This document shows, one piece after another, positions 24,545 to 36,100 of a DNA stretch of 64,000 nucleotides. How positions within the stretch are numbered: position 1 is the stretch's first letter; each line of letters begins with the position of its first letter. A program made the translations under genes and the position numbers. The notes beneath the pieces are model-generated. The model saw only the letters and a program-made list of their open reading frames with translations, ran no database searches and was not told the DNA's origin. Source of the stretch: Daphnia pulex (lineage: Eukaryota > Arthropoda > Branchiopoda > Diplostraca > Daphniidae). Where the stretch lies: the NCBI RefSeq assembly GCF_021134715.1, contig NC_060020.1:6758001-6822000 (forward strand), read 5' to 3'.

Positions 24545-26748
24545 TTGATGATATAAAAAACTCCTATCCTATCAAATTCCAAACCCAAATGACAAAAAAA
24601 AAACTAAAAAAAAAACTGATGGCATGCAGGCTTGCAGTTGCAGACTAAACTTATACGCGTCTTTTAAACCTTTTACAAACACGCCAATGCAAAAAGAATC
24701 TAGTGGTGCTAATAATTTTTTCTGCTATAGATGTTATTCCAACCAGCTTAAAAGCATGTTAAAAGGCAGGCTATAGAATACGTATTCTATGGCTCTGTTA
24801 AAAGGTATAAAACTTAGGTATAAAACGCTGGGAACCACAAAGATCGTGATTATTTGTAGGTTATTTCCACATCAATCACAGTGTAAAGGAAACAACGCCA
24901 ACACTACAAAAAAAAACATTAGAAAAGAGAAGATCGAGTTGAAAACCGAGTAAAACCTCTACCCAACCATCATATGTGTCGAGTCCATCTTCCTGCCCTG
25001 CCTTGTAAGGTATCTGTCAAGTAAATCAAATTAATTTACATTTGATCTGTCATACATGAACACTTGCAACTTTTTCCCCAGTTGACGCAGGCTGCTTCCC
25101 GGAAAGTTAATGGTTTCAAGTAACAGTGGCCGTGTCACTCCCTTTTCCACTGAATAAGAATAGAAGAGAGGGCATCTACATTTTCATTGAGCGTGAAACC
25201 GTAACCGTGGACGTTAGCAAACATAATTTGATAGCGCTGCTGCTGGAATCAGATCCGTTTTGGATTTGACAGCAGATAGACGCAGTACCTATTTTGAAGA
25301 CTTAAAAATGGTTTTTTTACGGGGATATCCGACAGAAGATGAAGGTTTCCTTATCCAAGCAATTAATTTGTAGCTGCTGCGGTCATTCAAGCGATTCCAT
25401 TCAACATTCCACATCGCATTATTCTCTTATCTTAAATAGAAAAAAAAAATATTCCATCATTGCTGCATTAAAAAGACTACCATCGTTTCATTTTAACGTT
25501 AATTAGGCATATGTCAATAAAAGCATTGTTTTTCCCCCCTTTTTTTGTGAAAAATTCCGTCTGACCCTGATGTAATCGCACAAGTCAAGAGCTCTAGAAC
25601 CAAAAGAAAGCCAGTCGACGAATAAGCGGAATGGGTCACCTTGCATTAGTCATTCTAGCATTCCGTGCGCAAAGTCACGTCCTTGGAGTTCGCTATCTCT
25701 GCCCGCTTTAAATAGATGACTTTTGTAAACAATGTTGCGGCAGACTGTCTGACGTGACTTATCAAGCAGGTTTGTCATCTTACTTCTTTGGTTCCAAGTA
25801 CTTTACATAAACATATTCTAGTTCTAGTTCTTAAAAAATACTTCAATAAGGCATATAATTACTTTCAACTTGGCGACTCAAAATCAATAGGGAGAAAATT
25901 GCTTTACCGAGATTGCTGTCGTAAAATCCTATAGAATAACTATTACTAAAAGCCAGGTAAGTACAATTAATAAGCTAATACCAATTGGACGTCTAGGAAA
26001 GTATCACTAAATAATCTTGGGTTTCTTGAGTTTTGTCTGGACAGTTGCTGCATTCTGGCAAGAAAATTTTTGATTTTAGACAATTGAAACAATGCCAAGA
26101 ATAAGCTAAAGCTATTCTGAATCACAACATAATATGCTTTGAAGATCAAGCTATAAAGTCTTGATAAACTGGATATTTGATGGTATTTATAGCTTATTGG
26201 AAAAGAAAATGCCGGAACTTGGTATTGTCATCGCTTTTTCACCTATACACGAGTTGGTATGTTGGTAAAAAAAACCTTACATAAAATAAAAATTTAATTA
26301 GTATTAACTGTGTAACTTGTTGCGAGCAAAAAAACACTTTCGCGACCATCTGTATTTTCAAATGCATTTCATATGTAAATTTTTGGCAACACATCTAATT
26401 TGCCGAAACATAAATCCGATAAGCCCTTGGATTTGAACAAAAGAATGACAAAACGTAGTACATGAGAAACCCGCAGACAACAAAAATACATGGAATTACT
26501 TGATACTTGCTATTTTAAACGTGAATTTCTTTATTAATACAAAGCATATTGTAAGCACTTATTAGGCTGGATGCGATGTATGATTTGATTTTACGGAATT
26601 CAAATATGGAAACGGAATTTTTCTTAAAACAAGGGGAAACGCAGGATAAAACATAATAACCAAAATGGCACATTTTACCTGCGTGTAAAATCGTTGTAAT
26701 AAAAAAAAATGAACTTGAAACAAGGATGCTTGAAAAACGAAACAATGC
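24545..26748. other. Intergenic stretch and likely CENP-T 3' UTR
   Basis: No coding signal seen. The part nearest 24545-24650 should hold the promoter and 5' UTR of the C15orf61/CEP120 unit. The part near 26520-26748 lies downstream of the CENP-T-like stop and has a TTTATT (AATAAA on minus) near 26529, fitting its 3' end. The middle is AT-rich and featureless to my eye. Confidence 0.5.
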
Positions 26749-29700
26749 CTATTTGTGTTCCCTCTTTGCTTTCCGTTTCCATTCGTAATATTCGGGCGGG
26801 GCAGTGGTAGGAAGGAGTAGTTGGCATTCATCATTCAATAATAATTCGTGGCATAGGCCAGAGTATTCCATGTAATTCTTAACAATACCTTGCCTTTTCA
26901 TCATCTTGTAACAGTGTTCCCACGAATCCAAGGATGGTATACCTTCGTCGATGCAAAAATTCTCCATTTGGTCGAGAGTAAAGTCGAACCATTCTCCCAC
27001 CAAGCCGTGTACAGCATCCAAAGCTTCTTTCGTCACTTTGGTGCCTGCGTAGAAGCGGAAATTTGCTTTATTGAATGCCACACTTGTAATGTTATCTTCT
27101 TCTTTCTTTTTGGTGCTAACTGCACGGGGCTTTTTCTTAGCCGCCTTCTTTTTCGCTTCTGCTGCCGCTTCTTCGGCTTTTTGGGCTGCCACTTTGGCCC
27201 GCTGAAACTTGACTTTCGCTTGAAAAACAGGATCTGCCTTCAGTCGTTTTTCTAATGGGACAAAATCCTTGCTTCTATCTTCAATATTCTGAAAACCGCG
27301 ATAACAGAATTGGTTAGTTTAAGATATTACTGTGAATCCCATTTAATTAAATTTACCTCAAAAGCAATGGCAATGCAACGCGGGATCGGTCTTTCTTGAT
27401 CATCTTCCACGTCGTCCCATTCTGTATCAGAAGATTCAGCTTTCTCATCAAGTGCTGACTTAACTAATGACTTCCCTTTCTCAGGATTTAAAATACTTAA
27501 TCCTTTGGATGCGATATTGGCTACAGACGCGCGTGAAAGAGCAGGTGTAGTAGAAGTCAATTGTTTTTTATCCTGAGCAGTTTTCGCTACCGGAACGCGT
27601 GAAGCTGCAGGAGTAGCTGAATCAGGAGCTGGAGTAGATGGAGTCGAAGGCTGTTGATCCTGAACATTTCTTATAGCTTTTTTCACAGAAGACTTCATCA
27701 CGTTCATGAACATTGGGCTTTGGGTTATGGAACTCTTCCGTTTTCTGGCGAACGGAGCAGGGGTAGACGGGTGTAAAGGAGTCTTTTGAACATTCCTTGA
27801 CGTAGGTGATGATGCGTTCGTACTAGTCACTGTTCCAGCATTAGAGGATTCTGATGCATTCGATTTTTTAGTTGAGAAAATCAGTGTAGGAGCACCTTGC
27901 TCACTAGGTCTGATTGGGGACATGCTGAGCGGAGCTCCACCGAAATCTGCACCTCCTGCAACTACCGTAGAGTTTTTAAGAGCAGGATATCGGTTGGTTG
28001 GACTCATCCCAATTTTTCCTGATTTGCGGGAACTAGACTTGCTGGATTCAGGCAAAGAATGCGTTAGTCTTCTCGACTTCGCAGATAACTCTTCGTCCGT
28101 TTCTTCCTCATCATTTTCTTCTGTAGACTTTTCGTCTATGGAATCGTTATCACTAGGTGGAGTTTCCTCCACTTCCTACGAATTTACAAACAAAATTTAG
28201 TTCTAGGTATAATGATTAACAAGATATTGACAAAATGAAATAGATAGTGAAAAAGAATTTACAGCTTCGTTGATCAATAGTAGATCATCCACAATTGGTT
28301 GAATCGTACTACGATCCTCTTTGGTGGCCAGAGACTCAAATTTCTGACTTCCTCGTGAGCGGCTTCCAGATGATGACAACGATGCTTTAGCTTCTTCGAC
28401 CTGCTCTATGACGGGAGATGGAGTTTTGTTGATGGGTTCCGTAATTTGCTTCGACAAGAGGTCGTCAGGTTCTTCCGATTCCGATTCTACATAAATGGAT
28501 TCGTAAATGGAAGATAAACGAAGAAATATATTTTCAACTAGGACAAACCTGAATCGGAATCTAAGATTACTCTGGAGAACGCCGGTAACGACTTATTGGG
28601 AGGTCGGTTAGAACGCGATGGCAATTCCAATACAGGATCATCATCTTCACCTAAGTAATTTTTTAAAGAAGACAATTGGAATAATAAAGTCGAGATTCAA
28701 GAGATTAAAAAATCGCTTGTGTTGACGGAAAACCAACCTGATTCTGGGCGTGTTATGTTCTTCCTTTTGATTACGTTTGATGAAGACTTTGATTCGGATG
28801 CCCTCCTTGAACTGCCTGGAATACTTTCAATTTCTTCAAGTAATGGCGAAGGAGTTTTGCGAGTAGCAGTTGATCGTGTTGATTTATTGGGGCTGTTGAA
28901 AACTTCATCAATTGTTTCTGACAAGGAATTGTAGGAAGCTCGGCTAGAGCTCCGCAAGTTTTTTTCAATTTCCTTGATTTTAGGCGATGGTAATAGATTC
29001 AATATGGGGCCATTGTCTTCATCTGAATAATGTATCAGAACAATTACAATTATTTGAATGGGCAAGATTTAAGGATCGTTTAAAGCTGAGTGAAACACTA
29101 ACCTGAGTCTGGGCGTTGAATTTTCTTTCTTCTGATTACATTTGATGAAGACGATGATTGAGAGGCTCTGCTAGAACTCCGTGAAATATTTCTCGTTTCT
29201 TCAGCGGAAGGCGAAGTAGTTCTGCGAGAAGCGGTTGACCGTGATGAATTATTTGCTTTTTTCAACACCACATCATTATTTCCCGGTAAGGATTTGGAGG
29301 CTCGGCTGGAACTAATGTTATCATTAGACTTTGTTACCGTCGTTGTTTTGTTGGAAGCTCGACTGGCACTGCGCAAACTTCTGTTAATTTTCTTAATTAC
29401 CGACGAAACTGATTCAGCATCAGCATCTTCGGGATCATTATCTACCAATATACAGAAAACAATAATGGTATTTTAAATATGGCTAGGAAACGGGATATTG
29501 TCATTCTATAAGTTACCTGAAGCTGGGACTGCGCTTCGTTTGCTGTCATTTAATGACGATGATGACTTATTTGATGCTCGGCTGGAAGTACGCGAAACCG
29601 TTCCTTTTTCTTCTATTTCTTCGTCGACTAATGGAAGAGTTGCGTGATGCGAGGTTACCGCCGTTAAATTAGATCTCTTAGACACCAAAACGTTTGGGAT

Positions 29701-31001
29701 TTCCAGTGTAGGACCTTTAAGAGGAGATTCTGATGATGCAGGAATGTCATTCTTTTCTCTTGGCTCCACTGTCGGGCCAGTCATTAAGTGTTTACTTTTT
29801 ATTATCTGTGTGGATGATGTAGAAGGAGAAAAATCATCTGAGGATTCCAGTTCTGGCATGTCGCTATCGTCAGACAAATCAGAATCACTAGCTTTAGTTG
29901 GGGTTTCTAAGAGTGCTTTTGATTTCTTCATCTCACCAGGATCTTGTTCTTTCTGGCTTTGTAGAGCTTTATTGAACGCTGTAGTCGACATTCGCGTTTT
30001 AGATTTTTTGACAAGGCGATTAATTTGTTGCATCTTTTCAGGACTTTCTAAAGCTGAGGGAATTTCCACGGAATCTTGTTCTTTCTCGTCTTCTTGAGTT
30101 TTTTTTGTTACTCTAGTCGACATTCGCGATTTAGATTTGTTAACAAGGCGACTAACTTCTTGCTTCTTTGCAGGATTTTCTAAAGATGAGGGATTGTCTT
30201 CAGAATCTTGTTCTTGTTGATCTTCTAACACCTTTTTGAAGGTGGTAGTCGACATTCGCATTTTAGATTTGTTTTCAAGGCGACTAACTTCATGCTTCTT
30301 TCCAGGACTTTCTAAAGTTGAGGGGATTTCTTCAGAATCTTGTTCTTGTTGATCTTTTTTCCCATCAAGGGTTTCTTTAAACATTGATGTAGATGTACGT
30401 TTCTTAGATTTCAAAGGTCTTCGAGAGAGTAATTTATCTGGACTTCCTAAATCAGAAGGAATATTTGATTCACCCAGGTCATCAGAGGTATTTACCACCT
30501 GTGACTGCTGACCGAGCTGCTGGCTTTGGAATGCTTTGGAATAAGCAGAAATTGACATCCGTTTCTTGTTTTTTTTGGTTGGTATTGGGCGAACAACTAA
30601 ACTCGGACTTCCTAAGTTTGACAGAATCTCAGAGTTATCAAAGACGGAATCATCCTGAAAGCTGTGAGTCCGTGTCTCATCAACACTCTTCTTTTTTGAG
30701 ACATTTCCTTGAGATAGTACTTCATCATTAAGTTTCCTTTTCTGAACCCTCTGACTACTTTGAGAACTTACTACAGGTGTAACAACTTCTTCGTTTTGTA
30801 GAACAAGTTTCTGAAATTTAAAAAACCATTTATTATTATGTTGGAGCAAAGAATTCAACAAATTACCTTATTAGGAGGTTCAAAAATTTCGTCTAATAGA
30901 TCAGGCGAATCAACTGGTGTGGCAATATCAAAGAACCTGTCAATCACACGTAGTGGTGTCGTAGTCTCAATCGATTTGTTCATCTTCTCATCTTTCGCCA
31001 T
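26749..31001 (-). CDS. CENPT: CENP-T-like inner kinetochore protein with repeated tail motifs
   Basis: CENP-T bridges centromeric DNA and the outer kinetochore: its C-terminal histone fold pairs with CENP-W, and its N-terminal tail recruits NDC80 and MIS12 complexes after phosphorylation. Exons (minus) 31001-30867, 30810-29517, 29441-29103, 29022-28738, 28650-28549, 28486-28263, 28175-27357 and 27288-26749 give 1245 aa. The last 110 residues align by eye with the CENP-T fold: FRFYAGTKVTKEALDAV (helix 1), a central helix, then KMMKRQGIV and CHELLLNDECQLLLP, corresponding to the LMRRQGLV and LPLEYRKLLIP region unique to CENP-T's two-helix extension. The N-terminus TTPLRVIDRFFDIATP recalls the NDC80-binding TPRxLLRxxLDT motif. 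Five copies of a K/R-x-[M/T]-S-[T/I]-x-x-[F/Y] motif lie at residues about 128-331. The rest is a disordered Ser/Pro/Lys tail. It is about twice the length of vertebrate CENP-T (about 560 aa). The start is the first ATG with a sensible N-terminus; the frame is open to 31142. Confidence 0.68.
28738..29441 (-). repeat. Tandemly duplicated exons of the CENP-T-like gene
   Basis: Exon 3 (29441-29103) and exon 4 (29022-28738) encode related segments. Both begin with D-N-D/D-E-D, contain (R)S-x-SRAS motifs and T-SP-x-x-EE, and end NVIRRKKIQRPDSG or NVIKRKNITRPESG. The end of exon 2 (SRASNKSSSSL...PASG) has the same ending. All these introns are phase 1, so exons can be added or lost without breaking frame. 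Confidence 0.75.
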
Positions 31002-33147
31002 TTTATTTGAACTATTAATTACTTGAATGTTACTTGAATGTGAAAACCTTTTATCGACATTACCGCCACAAAGCACAAAATCGAATTGTGGGAAATCAAA
31101 TTGGAGGGAATAGGCTACAAAATAACAACTTCTGAACTGCAAAGGCCAGTCAACTGCAATTGATAGACTGATAGACTGTAGTAGCTGGTTGCTGGTATAC
31201 TCTGGTGAGTGGTAGTCCTAAATATTTTAGCAGAGCTATAGACTCCTCAAAATGAAAATCTTTGACAGGAATAAATTTTATTTTTTCCGGAATGCTTTAT
31301 TTCGATATATTTATATTCGATAAACTAAATGTATTTAATAATGTTAAGAAATGGCACTGATACATATTTCTTAATTAGTAAACTAGCGGTGGCGCTGTAA
31401 AACCAGAAAGAAATGAAAAAAATAATCCCGCTAAAAATGAATTCTTCATAACAAACTTTAAGTTTTGGGCTTAGTTTAGCGATATGTTTGTATTTACTGC
31501 TGGAGGCTACATCTAAACGGCTAGTTAATTAGTTTACTTACTATTATAGACCAATAGCTAAATTTTAGAACTTATCTGGCATGGCATAATTTAAAAAACA
31601 AACGGAGGTATTCCGACAGACCCCTGGTCGCTTCACGGCTGTGTTGGCTTCCCTATCCCGGTTTCAGGGTCCACGTCCATCCGTGCAGCGAAATTTTTCA
31701 AACAGTGCACATAACGAATGAATTTGACATTTTTGTTGCCGTTTTTTGGTTTCAAACTAGAATGCAAAAACATCATTTTTAAATGTTTAGCTAATTTTCC
31801 CGTAATTCTTACAAGGTAGCTCGGTGACTTAGCCGAAGGCCAACGCTTTTAACGTGAGCCCTAATTATATCTCACATAACGAATTCAGACTTAACGTCTT
31901 CTAGTATAAAATGAATTTACAATTTAGCACCAGGGACGTGGCGCTCGGAATCGTTAACACGCGCGGTCTCTTAATGGCAGATAGCGCGGGTAGTCCCTTC
32001 GTAAACTTAGAATTACAATTTACAGATAACCTGCAAGTCCTATTTTTTTCTACTTGTCTCTAAAACTCAATAATATGCTAGCGCACGGGGTTTTTATGTT
32101 TCAGCAATCGTAAGTTTTTAGCATAATCTCGACCGCAATCATCAACTTTAGTACCGACAGAATCCGTCGCTACGCTTGGCGAAGCATCCACAGCGAATAA
32201 AAAACGCCACCTGCATACGGCGGATTGGTAACCACAATTGAAAAATGCGTTTTTTTTTTAAATAACCGTTTAAATTTAAATAACTTAGGACTACTAGGAC
32301 ATAAATAGAAAATGAACCCCAGTCGTAAATTCTCTTTAAGCAAACATTTTGTCAATCTTCATACCTCTTCACTTGACTTGAATTTCACATAAAATGAAAT
32401 TACTTGGATCAAGGATCAAAATCAAATACGCAATAAATAGTGATAAATTCTATGTTTGAAATTCTTTCATCAAGTTCTGACTCAAGGAAAGCCACTTCTT
32501 GATTTATAACTTTTTTTGCACATTTGGTACTAATGATTTTGTTGTGCTATAGACCTGTCACCATACTCGTTCAAATTGTATTAACGAATTCGTGAGATTC
32601 GATTCGAACAATATTAAGAATACAATAAAGCATTATCACATGAAAAATAAAATAAAGATACATCAAGAGCAATCAAGAAAAGTAAATTTCAAGATTTTCT
32701 GTGAAATGAAATGTGAATCGATAATTCTAATCAGTGAGTGAAAGGTAGAAATCAAGTAATATCATATGAAATTTCTTGGTGAATGTATTTAATTGAAAAC
32801 AAACTTGGGTAGGTAAACGGAATAAAGCACAAGGTTGGGGAATACAGGAACAACTAATTTCATCACAATCTCATTTATAGAGAAAGGAAAAAAATAACCG
32901 AAGGAAGGAAAACGGAGGACAATAAAAAAAAACCTAAGCTAATAAAAAAAATTATGCATCACCCACAGCCGATTAAATTGAAACTGGTGATTTCCCTAGG
33001 AATCTCGCGAGAGGCTTTATCAACCAAGTCTGGCCGACATGCATAATAATATGGTTCCTCAAACAGCACAAGTTGATACAAAATTAAACTGGCGACCATC
33101 ATTGGGAGAGCAGGTTGGTTTTCTTTCTGCATCTGTTTAAGTTCTGT
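31002..33147. other. Intergenic region between CENP-T-like gene and ATRX
   Basis: Holds the upstream side of the CENP-T-like gene (to about 31200) and the likely 3' UTR of ATRX (about 32900-33147). In between lies the CEP120 exon-2 fragment (separate entry). A patch at 31600-32200 has higher GC and short repeated phrases (AATTTACAATTTA near 31914, GAATTACAATTTACAG near 32011). This may be the remains of a mobile element, but no terminal repeats could be found. Confidence 0.45.
32340..32525 (-). pseudogene. Decayed copy of CEP120 exon 2 and adjoining intron
   Basis: The sequence matches 23701-23905 (exon 2 of the CEP120-like gene and its downstream intron start) over about 185 bp. Shared blocks include TCTTCATACC (the splice donor side), GGATCAAAATCAAATA, and TGTTTGAAATTCTTTCATCA followed by AGTTCTGAC and AAGGAAAGCCACTTCTTGAT. 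It carries substitutions and an internal deletion, in the part corresponding to about 23790-23830. Because intron sequence is copied too, it arose by DNA duplication and not from mRNA. It is not open as a CEP120 reading frame and lacks the other exons. Confidence 0.85.
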
Positions 33148-36100
33148 TTACGTTTTAGGTACAGAATTAGATCCTAAAATAAAGAAAAACAAATTATTAC
33201 AAATTCTATAATATGCGAGAGATATATGAGAATTTTGAATAATACCACTCGGTCCTGCTGGTTGATTCGATCCTGTAGCAGAGTTGTAAATAACAGGGGC
33301 CAGTCCATACAAATCTGTTCGCTGGTGTGGGCCTATGGTAGGCCTCCCGCGAGATCTTGGTGGAGCTGATGCGCCTAAACCACTGGGTCCTAAGACGAAG
33401 ATGGTTAGTCAGATATTTAATTTTCCAAATAAATATGCAAACTACCTGGTAAGCCTGGTGATTGCGGAGTATTACCAAATTGGCGTTTGAGCTGGTCAGC
33501 AGCTACTTGGCGCTGCATTAGTAATCTTTGAGCATCACCGGGTTGCTGTAATGCTGCAGACTGAGCGGAAGCAGCGGCTGCGGCGGCTGAAGCGGCAGCT
33601 GCTTGCTGGACAGAAAAGTTTTGAAGTTGATCAACCTAGAATAAATAAAAATAATAAGTTAGGAACAGTGTTTTAAAATAAAAACAAAATCTGATTCATT
33701 AGAAAATGAACTCACTGTCAATCGAAGCCTTCCAAGGAACTCGTCCTGATTAATCCCAGGATTAGAGTTGTAGATCATAGCCGCTATGCTACTCAGTGGA
33801 ATACCAGCAACCGATCGTCCGGCGAGTCCTCCTAAAATTTCTGGCATTCCAGGCATACTCATAAAACCAGGCATTTCATTCATCATCATGCCCATCATAG
33901 GGTTTACGCCGCGTTTCTCATTTTCAAAGTCATCCCAAGCGGCTTTGCGCTCGGCTTCCGTCAGTTCTTCTTCGGACTTGTTTTCGAGAAGCGAGTCATG
34001 TTCGTGGTAAGTAACGATCCAGTCCTTTCTTTGGATAGTGAGCTCAGCCAGAAGACGATCTTTCGGTAGAAGGGGAGTCGGTCGACGTAAATGGCTATCA
34101 GGTTCGAAGATATATAACTCGTTAAGATCCGCTGAGTTGAAATGGCGTTCGATTTGTTGCTCATCGACAACTCGGCACGATAATGATAGTTTCGTAACCT
34201 AGATTTAAAAAAAAAAACGGACAAGATTAGATTTTATACGAGTGAACCGATAATGAACTCTTTTACCTGGCGATCGTAAATTTTCTCCTCCATGGTGCCT
34301 TGAGCCAAAAAACGATAAATATAGCAAGGTTTCTTTTGCCCAAACCTAGAATAAGTCATAAAAATTGTAAGTTTGCGTTATTTAATAATTAATTAATAAT
34401 TTAATTAACTCACCGATAAACGCGGAAAATACTTTGCACGTCGTGCGAGGGATTCCACGAGGCGTCAAAAATTATGACACGATTCGCTGCAACCAGATTG
34501 ATTCCCAAGCCACCGGCTTTAGTTGAAATAAGAAACAGTCGAGAACGAAGATTGGAGGGATTGTTGAAAGCATTGCATGCGTTTTTACGCAGCTCCGCTG
34601 AAGTCTGTCCATCTAATCGGAAGTAGTCGTGATTGAAACGCCATGTCCCAATAGGATCCTGTTTTAACTGTATAGAAAAAATAATGCATAATGTAAAATG
34701 AAGAACTTCATGATGCTAAAAAGAAAAACTTACATCGGTGCTTGCCAAGCTCGCCCGATTTTTCTCATTTTGCTCGTCCTCGGCTGCGAGGAATTCCTCG
34801 ATCAAATTTAACGAAACAAGGGACTGGCTGAAAACCAGGACCTTATCACCAATGAGCTCGCACTGACGAAGAATATCCATGAGAAGTATGAGCTTGCCAC
34901 TGTGTTCCATTTTGACCATGTCCTCGTCTTGGACGAATTGTGACCACCAGGTGCTAGACATTGGAGTAGTCACGCCTAATTCATCTTCTGGCGGAGGCTG
35001 ATCTCCACGGGCAGCACGCGTTCTCATTCTAAAGTTGTTTGATTTAGTTCCTGCCGCTGAAAATTTAACCGACAAAGAGTTCGTTAGTAACAGTCGAACA
35101 TCTATAAAATGAAATGAAATGGTAATTTGAATTTGGGGTTACACGTACCGGCTTCTTTTTCATCGCCACTTTCATCCAAACAAACAACGCCGCCGTCATC
35201 GTCGCTCACGGGTGTTTCTCCTCGGTCGTCAATGAAATCCGCTATTGAACCTTCAGAATCACTGCTGTTGTTTTTTGCTTTAGCTTCACGATTAAGTTCT
35301 GCCAACAGCAACGCTTTGGGATGCGTCCAAACTCGCCCCAATTCCTGGAAATCGGCAAAGAGTCCAGCTCCTTTTCCGCGACCGATATGATTCGGACCAC
35401 CCTTGGCATGATACTCCAGGTAATACTGGTACATCTTGATCTGTAGTTCCGACAACTTCACTGACACGACGTATTCGTGCTTAGGAGGCAAGAATGGAGT
35501 CAGAACGGCGTAATCGAATCGTTGCACGGAATCTGTTAAAAAAATATATATATCTTTAGATAACAAATTCAAGGAGAAGAAAAATGAAATTCACCTTCGA
35601 GCATTTTGTGCAATACGTGGGCTCGTCGTTTCATAACCCGTACGTCAGAGTCAGTCGAGTCGGCAGCCTGTCCGTTTTTAATGGGATTGGCAAATCGATT
35701 CGTGAATTCCCTAACTGTTCCCAGTAGATTAGGTTTGACGAACTGAATCATGCAGTGATATTCTAGCAAGCTATTCTGGAGCGGAGTGCCTGTCAAGACC
35801 ACTCTTCTTCTAGTAGCGATCTTGTTCATTGCCTTGGACAGAGCTGTCTTCTCATTTTTCAGTAAATGGCCCTCATCGCATACAACGAGTTGCGGCCCAG
35901 GATCCACTAGAGAGCGTGTGAACACGTCGCGCTCTTTTTTTGTGATTTTTTTGTTGTTCTCGTTAGTTAGGTTGCGATACATATCGTAACCAATGATCAT
36001 GACCCCTCCACCTTCCAGCCAACTCTGTAGCGTGTACTTTCGGATATCTTTACTATTACCCTTGGCGCTTGCCATTTCGTACACTTCAACATCTGAATTT

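Follow-up and report, generated by a model that had tools for sequence, protein, structure and literature searches.

The question raised by this locus is whether a repeated element in the second exon of a Daphnia pulex CENP-T gene forms a real array and, if it does, what the array may bind at the kinetochore. The gene lies on the minus strand of the window, the stretch of 64,000 nucleotides that was analysed, with the following features:

26749..31001, minus strand: CENP-T gene, 8 exons and 1245 aa, with an open spliced frame and AG..GT at 7/7 introns
31001-30867, 30810-29517, 29441-29103, 29022-28738, 28650-28549, 28486-28263, 28175-27357 and 27288-26749, minus strand: exons of the CENP-T gene
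26854..27066, minus strand: histone-fold region that marks the protein as CENP-T (hhalign against vertebrate CENP-T)
30921..30959, minus strand: predicted NDC80-type docking motif TPLRVIDRFFDIA in exon 1, residues 15-27, a pattern match to the human sites

The histone fold in the last exon aligns with that of vertebrate CENP-T over 70 columns with 27% identity (hhalign, probability 95.3, P 2.2e-8) and a score of 51.0, against 20.3 for the best of 200 column shuffles. The Pfam model CENP-T_C reports neither the window gene nor P0013 of Daphnia carinata and gives only 15.5 bits (cut-off 28.1) to L008, one of the two paralogs of the window gene described below, and its 62 genome matches all lie outside the window gene, L007 and L008. 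A histone fold that is found by profile-profile comparison and is not called by Pfam points to a diverged CENP-T, and based on these comparisons we identify the product of the window gene as such. A Foldseek search with an AF2 model of the last exon returned CENP-T chains as its top two matches (probabilities 0.90 and 0.85, E 0.1 and 0.24); this second model is weak (mean pLDDT 57, the earlier one with a mean pLDDT of 49 having been set aside), and its input alignment included mammalian CENP-T rows. Among the best 120 of 381 protein matches (mammals as far as they are named), no sequence bridging crustacean and vertebrate CENP-T was found. The CENP-T histone-fold profile also has many near-identical matches on contig C10 between 1.77 and 4.32 Mb, which are probably repeated core histone gene clusters. 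Elsewhere in the window, a Helicase_C domain (34413-34715, minus strand, 59.8 bits) is found in the neighbouring gene, which may encode an SNF2/ATRX-type helicase. Rfam gave no match at the gathering threshold.

Exon 2 contains five copies of a two-part unit of ~36 aa each, listed here with their scores against a Hidden Markov Model (HMM) built from the units of other daphniids:

30520..30627, minus strand: unit 1, residues 107-142, intact, 35.7 bits
30358..30462, minus strand: unit 2, residues 162-196, intact, 45.2 bits
30217..30327, minus strand: unit 3, residues 207-243, intact, 35.3 bits, inside a 132-bp tandem
30085..30195, minus strand: unit 4, residues 251-287, degenerate, 11.7 bits for a partial match (251-277), inside the 132-bp tandem
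29953..30063, minus strand: unit 5, residues 295-331, intact, 47.4 bits, inside the 132-bp tandem or at its edge

The unit consensus consists of an SP half, [IFLVN]PSxLxSP, a spacer that often includes RP, and a core, KK[RK][VMI]S[TS][TS]xFxxx[LIF]; in the window copies the two halves read [IF]PSxLxSP and KKR[VMI]S[TS][TS]xFxxx[LIF]. A typical unit possesses a CDK-type SP, a basic cluster, an Aurora-type R-x-S and a hydrophobic pair, F-x-x-x-[LIF]. Copy 4 is degenerate in both halves, as LENP replaces the SP and its core, STRVTKKTQ, lacks the aromatic and the final hydrophobic residues. Copies 3-5 form a 132-bp DNA tandem (29982-30356, 2.8 copies, 82% matches), while copies 1 and 2 are more diverged. 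Outside the array, exons 3 and 4 (window 28738-29441) resemble a diverged internal duplication with 45% identity over 98 alignment columns, which is a second repeat in this CENP-T.

Because no unit of the Daphnia pulex genome was used to build it, the outgroup HMM is an independent test, and it matched 5/5 window copies at 47.4 to 11.7 bits; when this protein was shuffled 2000 times, the highest score was 8.3 bits. A regular expression for the core occurs at four places in exon 2 (127, 181, 228 and 316) and one for the SP half at five; of 20000 shuffles, 6 had one core match, 42 had one SP-half match and 0 had two of either, both expressions having been composed after the repeats were known. 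The five-copy repeat in exon 2 of CENP-T is therefore confirmed as real. The preliminary description of this DNA had claimed five copies, and its residue numbers, span and spacing agree with the spliced protein. Its claim that an SP precedes each copy is borne out for 4/5, copy 4 being the exception, and this SP is only a fragment of the conserved [IF]PSxLxSP half. The array had also been assigned to the "tail" of CENP-T, which is incorrect, as it occupies the N-terminal and not the C-terminal part of the protein.

Protein searches with exon 2 returned 8 and 6 proteins, with P0006 common to both sets. The best named relative, P0013 of D. carinata, is full length with 4 units; its public name, mucin-2-like isoform X3, is likely a misannotation of CENP-T. 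Four daphniid-like records (P0006, P0008, P0011 and P0012) contain 5 units each, P0005 contains four units and a truncated core at its start, and the short record P0007 contains three. Judging by how the units are ordered and how closely they resemble one another, we read units 1, 2, 3 and the last as traceable across species. In ten pairs formed by five records, identity is 260/368 in the SP half, 347/595 in the core, 258/535 in the spacer and 1520/3770 elsewhere, with 43 further columns mixed, and outside the units it drops to 21-35% in seven distant pairs. Among 38 units picked by regular expression and by eye, so that the counts describe the selected units, the S and the P of the SP are kept in 36/38 and 37/38, the core Ser in 36/38 and the Phe in 35/38; the selection leaves out the near-duplicates P0001-P0003, P0009 and P0010, the L008-like P0004, the eight units of L007, the first unit of P0005, which is truncated, and the SP half of L008 that has no core. 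As judged from these alignments, the unit motif is conserved while the surrounding sequence drifts. The lack of core conservation among relatives that was set to refute the earlier claim did not occur, since the core is kept across daphniids. Copy number is variable, with 4 in D. carinata, 5 in the window gene and in each of the four records, and 8 and 2 in the paralogs L007 and L008.

CENP-T is multi-copy in the Daphnia pulex genome, where the window gene, L007 and L008 all have open reading frames:

G000:C4:3997500-4007400: L007, on the contig of the window and ~2.8 Mb away, 1379 aa, eight units, with the exon plan of the window gene
G000:C11:1849500-1859400: L008, on contig C11, with exons 1, 2, 7 and 8 open, two units and one SP half without a core
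L009 4200-5700 and L033 3900-5100, on contig C3: decayed CENP-T fragments, ~24 kb apart

L007 is 96.9% identical to the window (largest block 5581 columns), and the match spans window positions 24815-31624, starting near the edge of the compared piece, so that it may extend further. Six of its 8 units are intact and its tandems are of 132 and 264 bp; its sequence identifies it as a recent copy of the window gene. L008 has no BLAST match to window positions 28114-29315, and it therefore has no counterpart of exons 4-6, of the greater part of exon 3 or of the beginning of exon 7. A genome scan with the unit consensus found 12 places, of which 11 belong to the window gene, L007 and L008 and the remaining one to fragment L033. 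Between the window gene and L007, dS is 0.014 and dN 0.013 (ratio 0.95), while the ratios between the window gene and L008 are 1.15 in exon 8 and 1.42 in exon 7, on few changes. Since these ratios are near or above 1 on few changes, constraint on the recent copies is not demonstrated.

Upstream of the array, exon 1 matches the pattern TPxx[hydrophobic]2xx[hydrophobic]2xxA in 5/5 daphniid exon 1 sequences, the other daphniid records being without exon 1. Human CENP-T has the same pattern at its two NDC80 sites, T11 and T85, for which peptides are described in PMC5241120, and nowhere else; the pattern was composed with both sets in view, and of 20000 shuffles 49 had one match and 0 had two. By hhalign, exon 1 lands on human CENP-T residues 80-97, with 14/200 column shuffles scoring equally high. 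The array is thus framed by an NDC80-type motif and the histone fold, and the human MIS12 site likewise lies between the NDC80 sites and the histone fold. Most units contain both SP and R-x-S, which are predicted phosphorylation sites. Based on this position, these sites, the basic cluster and the hydrophobic pair, we propose that the array may be a series of phospho-regulated docking sites for the outer kinetochore, with the MIS12 complex as first choice of partner, a tentative reading to which we give somewhat less than an even chance. The N-terminus of CENP-T would then offer one NDC80-type motif followed by an array of putative docking units; once phosphorylated in mitosis, each intact unit would bind a single outer-kinetochore complex, so that a CENP-T with more units would recruit more couplers. 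The putative docking units that are intact number 4/5 in the window gene, 6/8 in L007 and 2 in L008. A PMF1/Nnf1-type MIS12 subunit and SPC25 are found in the genome, both above Pfam cut-offs. For DSN1 (17 bits, in a retroelement-like frame), MIS12 (15.8 bits), NSL1 (16.3 bits) and CENP-C (no match) the profiles did not reach their cut-offs in the genome, and a search of it with a piece of human CENP-C protein was empty, neither result being readable as absence.

It is rather doubtful, although it has evidence in its favour, that the units are conserved and phospho-regulated for another partner and play no role in outer-kinetochore valency; candidates would be a kinase or phosphatase, chromatin or DNA bound through the basic cluster, CCAN subunits, or CENP-T itself through self-association. 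The units are conserved, their partner is what we infer, and KK[RK]-x-S clusters suit many ligands. In favour of this rival, and against the docking proposal, the whole unit shows no similarity to vertebrate CENP-T: there was no match by HMM, 155/200 column shuffles scored equally high by hhalign, and a PDB search with the unit gave 6 matches at E up to 10 with no kinetochore chain among them. What argues against another partner is the location of the array, since in vertebrates the part of CENP-T that lies between NDC80-type motif and histone fold serves to dock the outer kinetochore.

A bolder extension of the docking proposal, which we consider unlikely, is that a conserved MIS12-type unit has been multiplied, that the three Daphnia genes with 2, 5 and 8 units tune valency, and that the core survives in vertebrate CENP-T as two degenerate copies, at 154-166 and 214-226, the latter lying at the end of the MIS12 block. 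When the 13-residue core was scanned over 47 mammalian rows (46 of 110 records over 480 aa, plus human), these were the best and the second place, reached by 33/1000 and 95/1000 column shuffles, respectively (68/1000 and 99/1000 with units of other species only), and jointly equalled by 15/5000 column shuffles and 60/5000 permuted models. In the reversed mammalian alignment one place scores 2.39, more than the 2.23 at 214-226; the match at 214-226 is ordinary by itself, and when human replaces the mammals P is 0.36. The likeness is a weak hint in favour of the docking proposal with MIS12 as partner, and partly after the fact. A collinear match of the unit to human residues 195-226 was not significant alone, and a regular expression matching only human 214 was discounted, as it was composed with that segment in view. 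The preliminary description had likened the element to the human segment RLRLSVFQQGV and tied the latter to MIS12 recruitment. That segment is residues 156-166, whereas the human peptide that binds MIS12 in vitro is 184-215 with pS201, and 200-230 is needed in vivo (PMC5241120); AF2 puts residues 180-235 on MIS12 head 1, with R209 in a pocket that CENP-C and DSN1 also use (PMC11189301), and the chicken MIS12 site is 161-216 (PMC8844409). The residue numbers reject the segment as a MIS12 site, and it is retained only as the best, weak match of the core in mammals.

Still less probable is that the units are extra NDC80 (Spc24/25) docking helices, of which human CENP-T has two. Their F-x-x-[ATIV]-[LIF] spacing resembles the L-x-x-[VI]-L of the human peptides (PMC5241120), and multiple NDC80 sites are a known feature of CENP-T. 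However, the units fail the NDC80 pattern, as they lack the TP at that place, and their core is not aligned with the exon 1 motif, hhalign pairing only 7 columns around the SP; they also carry an upstream basic cluster that is absent from the known NDC80 sites, and neither human NDC80 site is among the two best places of the core scan. The lowest probability that we assign is for an array that is, for the most part, tandem expansion without function in a disordered region under weak constraint: recent DNA tandems account for copies 3-5 and for the additional copies of L007, the dN/dS values given above would fit, copy 4 is decaying, class 4 is irregular in P0006 and P0011 too, and exons 3 and 4 are another duplication, but units 1, 2, 3 and the last are mutually diverged and yet keep the same positions across species, while the residues outside them fall to the low identities of the seven distant pairs.

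The proposal that the array docks outer-kinetochore complexes bears on the number of couplers per linker, a question that has been addressed with engineered proteins such as a chicken CENP-T in which 1-90 is present twice (PMC8844409). With a natural series of 2, 4, 5 and 8 units, of which three occur in a single genome, the relation between docking-site number and kinetochore strength would become directly testable. CENP-T is also now located in water fleas, where the D. carinata relative goes by a mucin name. No such array was found in the literature on CENP-T with Daphnia, tandem repeats, the arthropod kinetochore, NDC80 site number or insect CENP-T motifs, as far as titles, the starts of abstracts and passages among the matches listed go, which is not proof of novelty. 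In the literature match for CENP-T with Daphnia, "daphnia" is absent from the main text and CENP-T appears once, in the references.

Among known systems, the insect CENP-T with a monomeric histone fold (PMC12678787) also belongs to the arthropod CENP-T family; that paper covers the C-terminal fold, and the word "repeat" is absent from its main text. Human CENP-T 154-166 (KQRLRLSVFQQGV) is the best mammalian place for the unit core, but its score is marginal, it is outside the mapped MIS12 peptide, and the papers examined assign it no function. By eye only, the N-terminal auto-inhibitory segment of DSN1 (WRR, RKSL) resembles the units in combining basic residues with an Aurora-type R-x-S; in human, this segment competes for the CENP-C/CENP-T site on MIS12 (PMC11189301). 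The NDC80 motifs (human T11 and T85; the chicken 1-90 region) are docking sites known to occur in multiple copies; the exon 1 motif matches both human sites, whereas the repeat units do not. The human MIS12 block (~180-235, T195/S201) is single, in contrast to the 2 to 8 daphniid units, has no significant similarity to the whole unit, and contains an S201 motif, PXSVXR, without clear counterpart in most daphniid units. Like the units, however, and in favour of the docking proposal, this block, which is conserved through residue 226 in mammals, has TP195, RP204-205, basic residues 209-215, F222 and L226 in matching order, is found in the same region of the protein, and in human is phospho-regulated (PMC5241120, PMC11189301).
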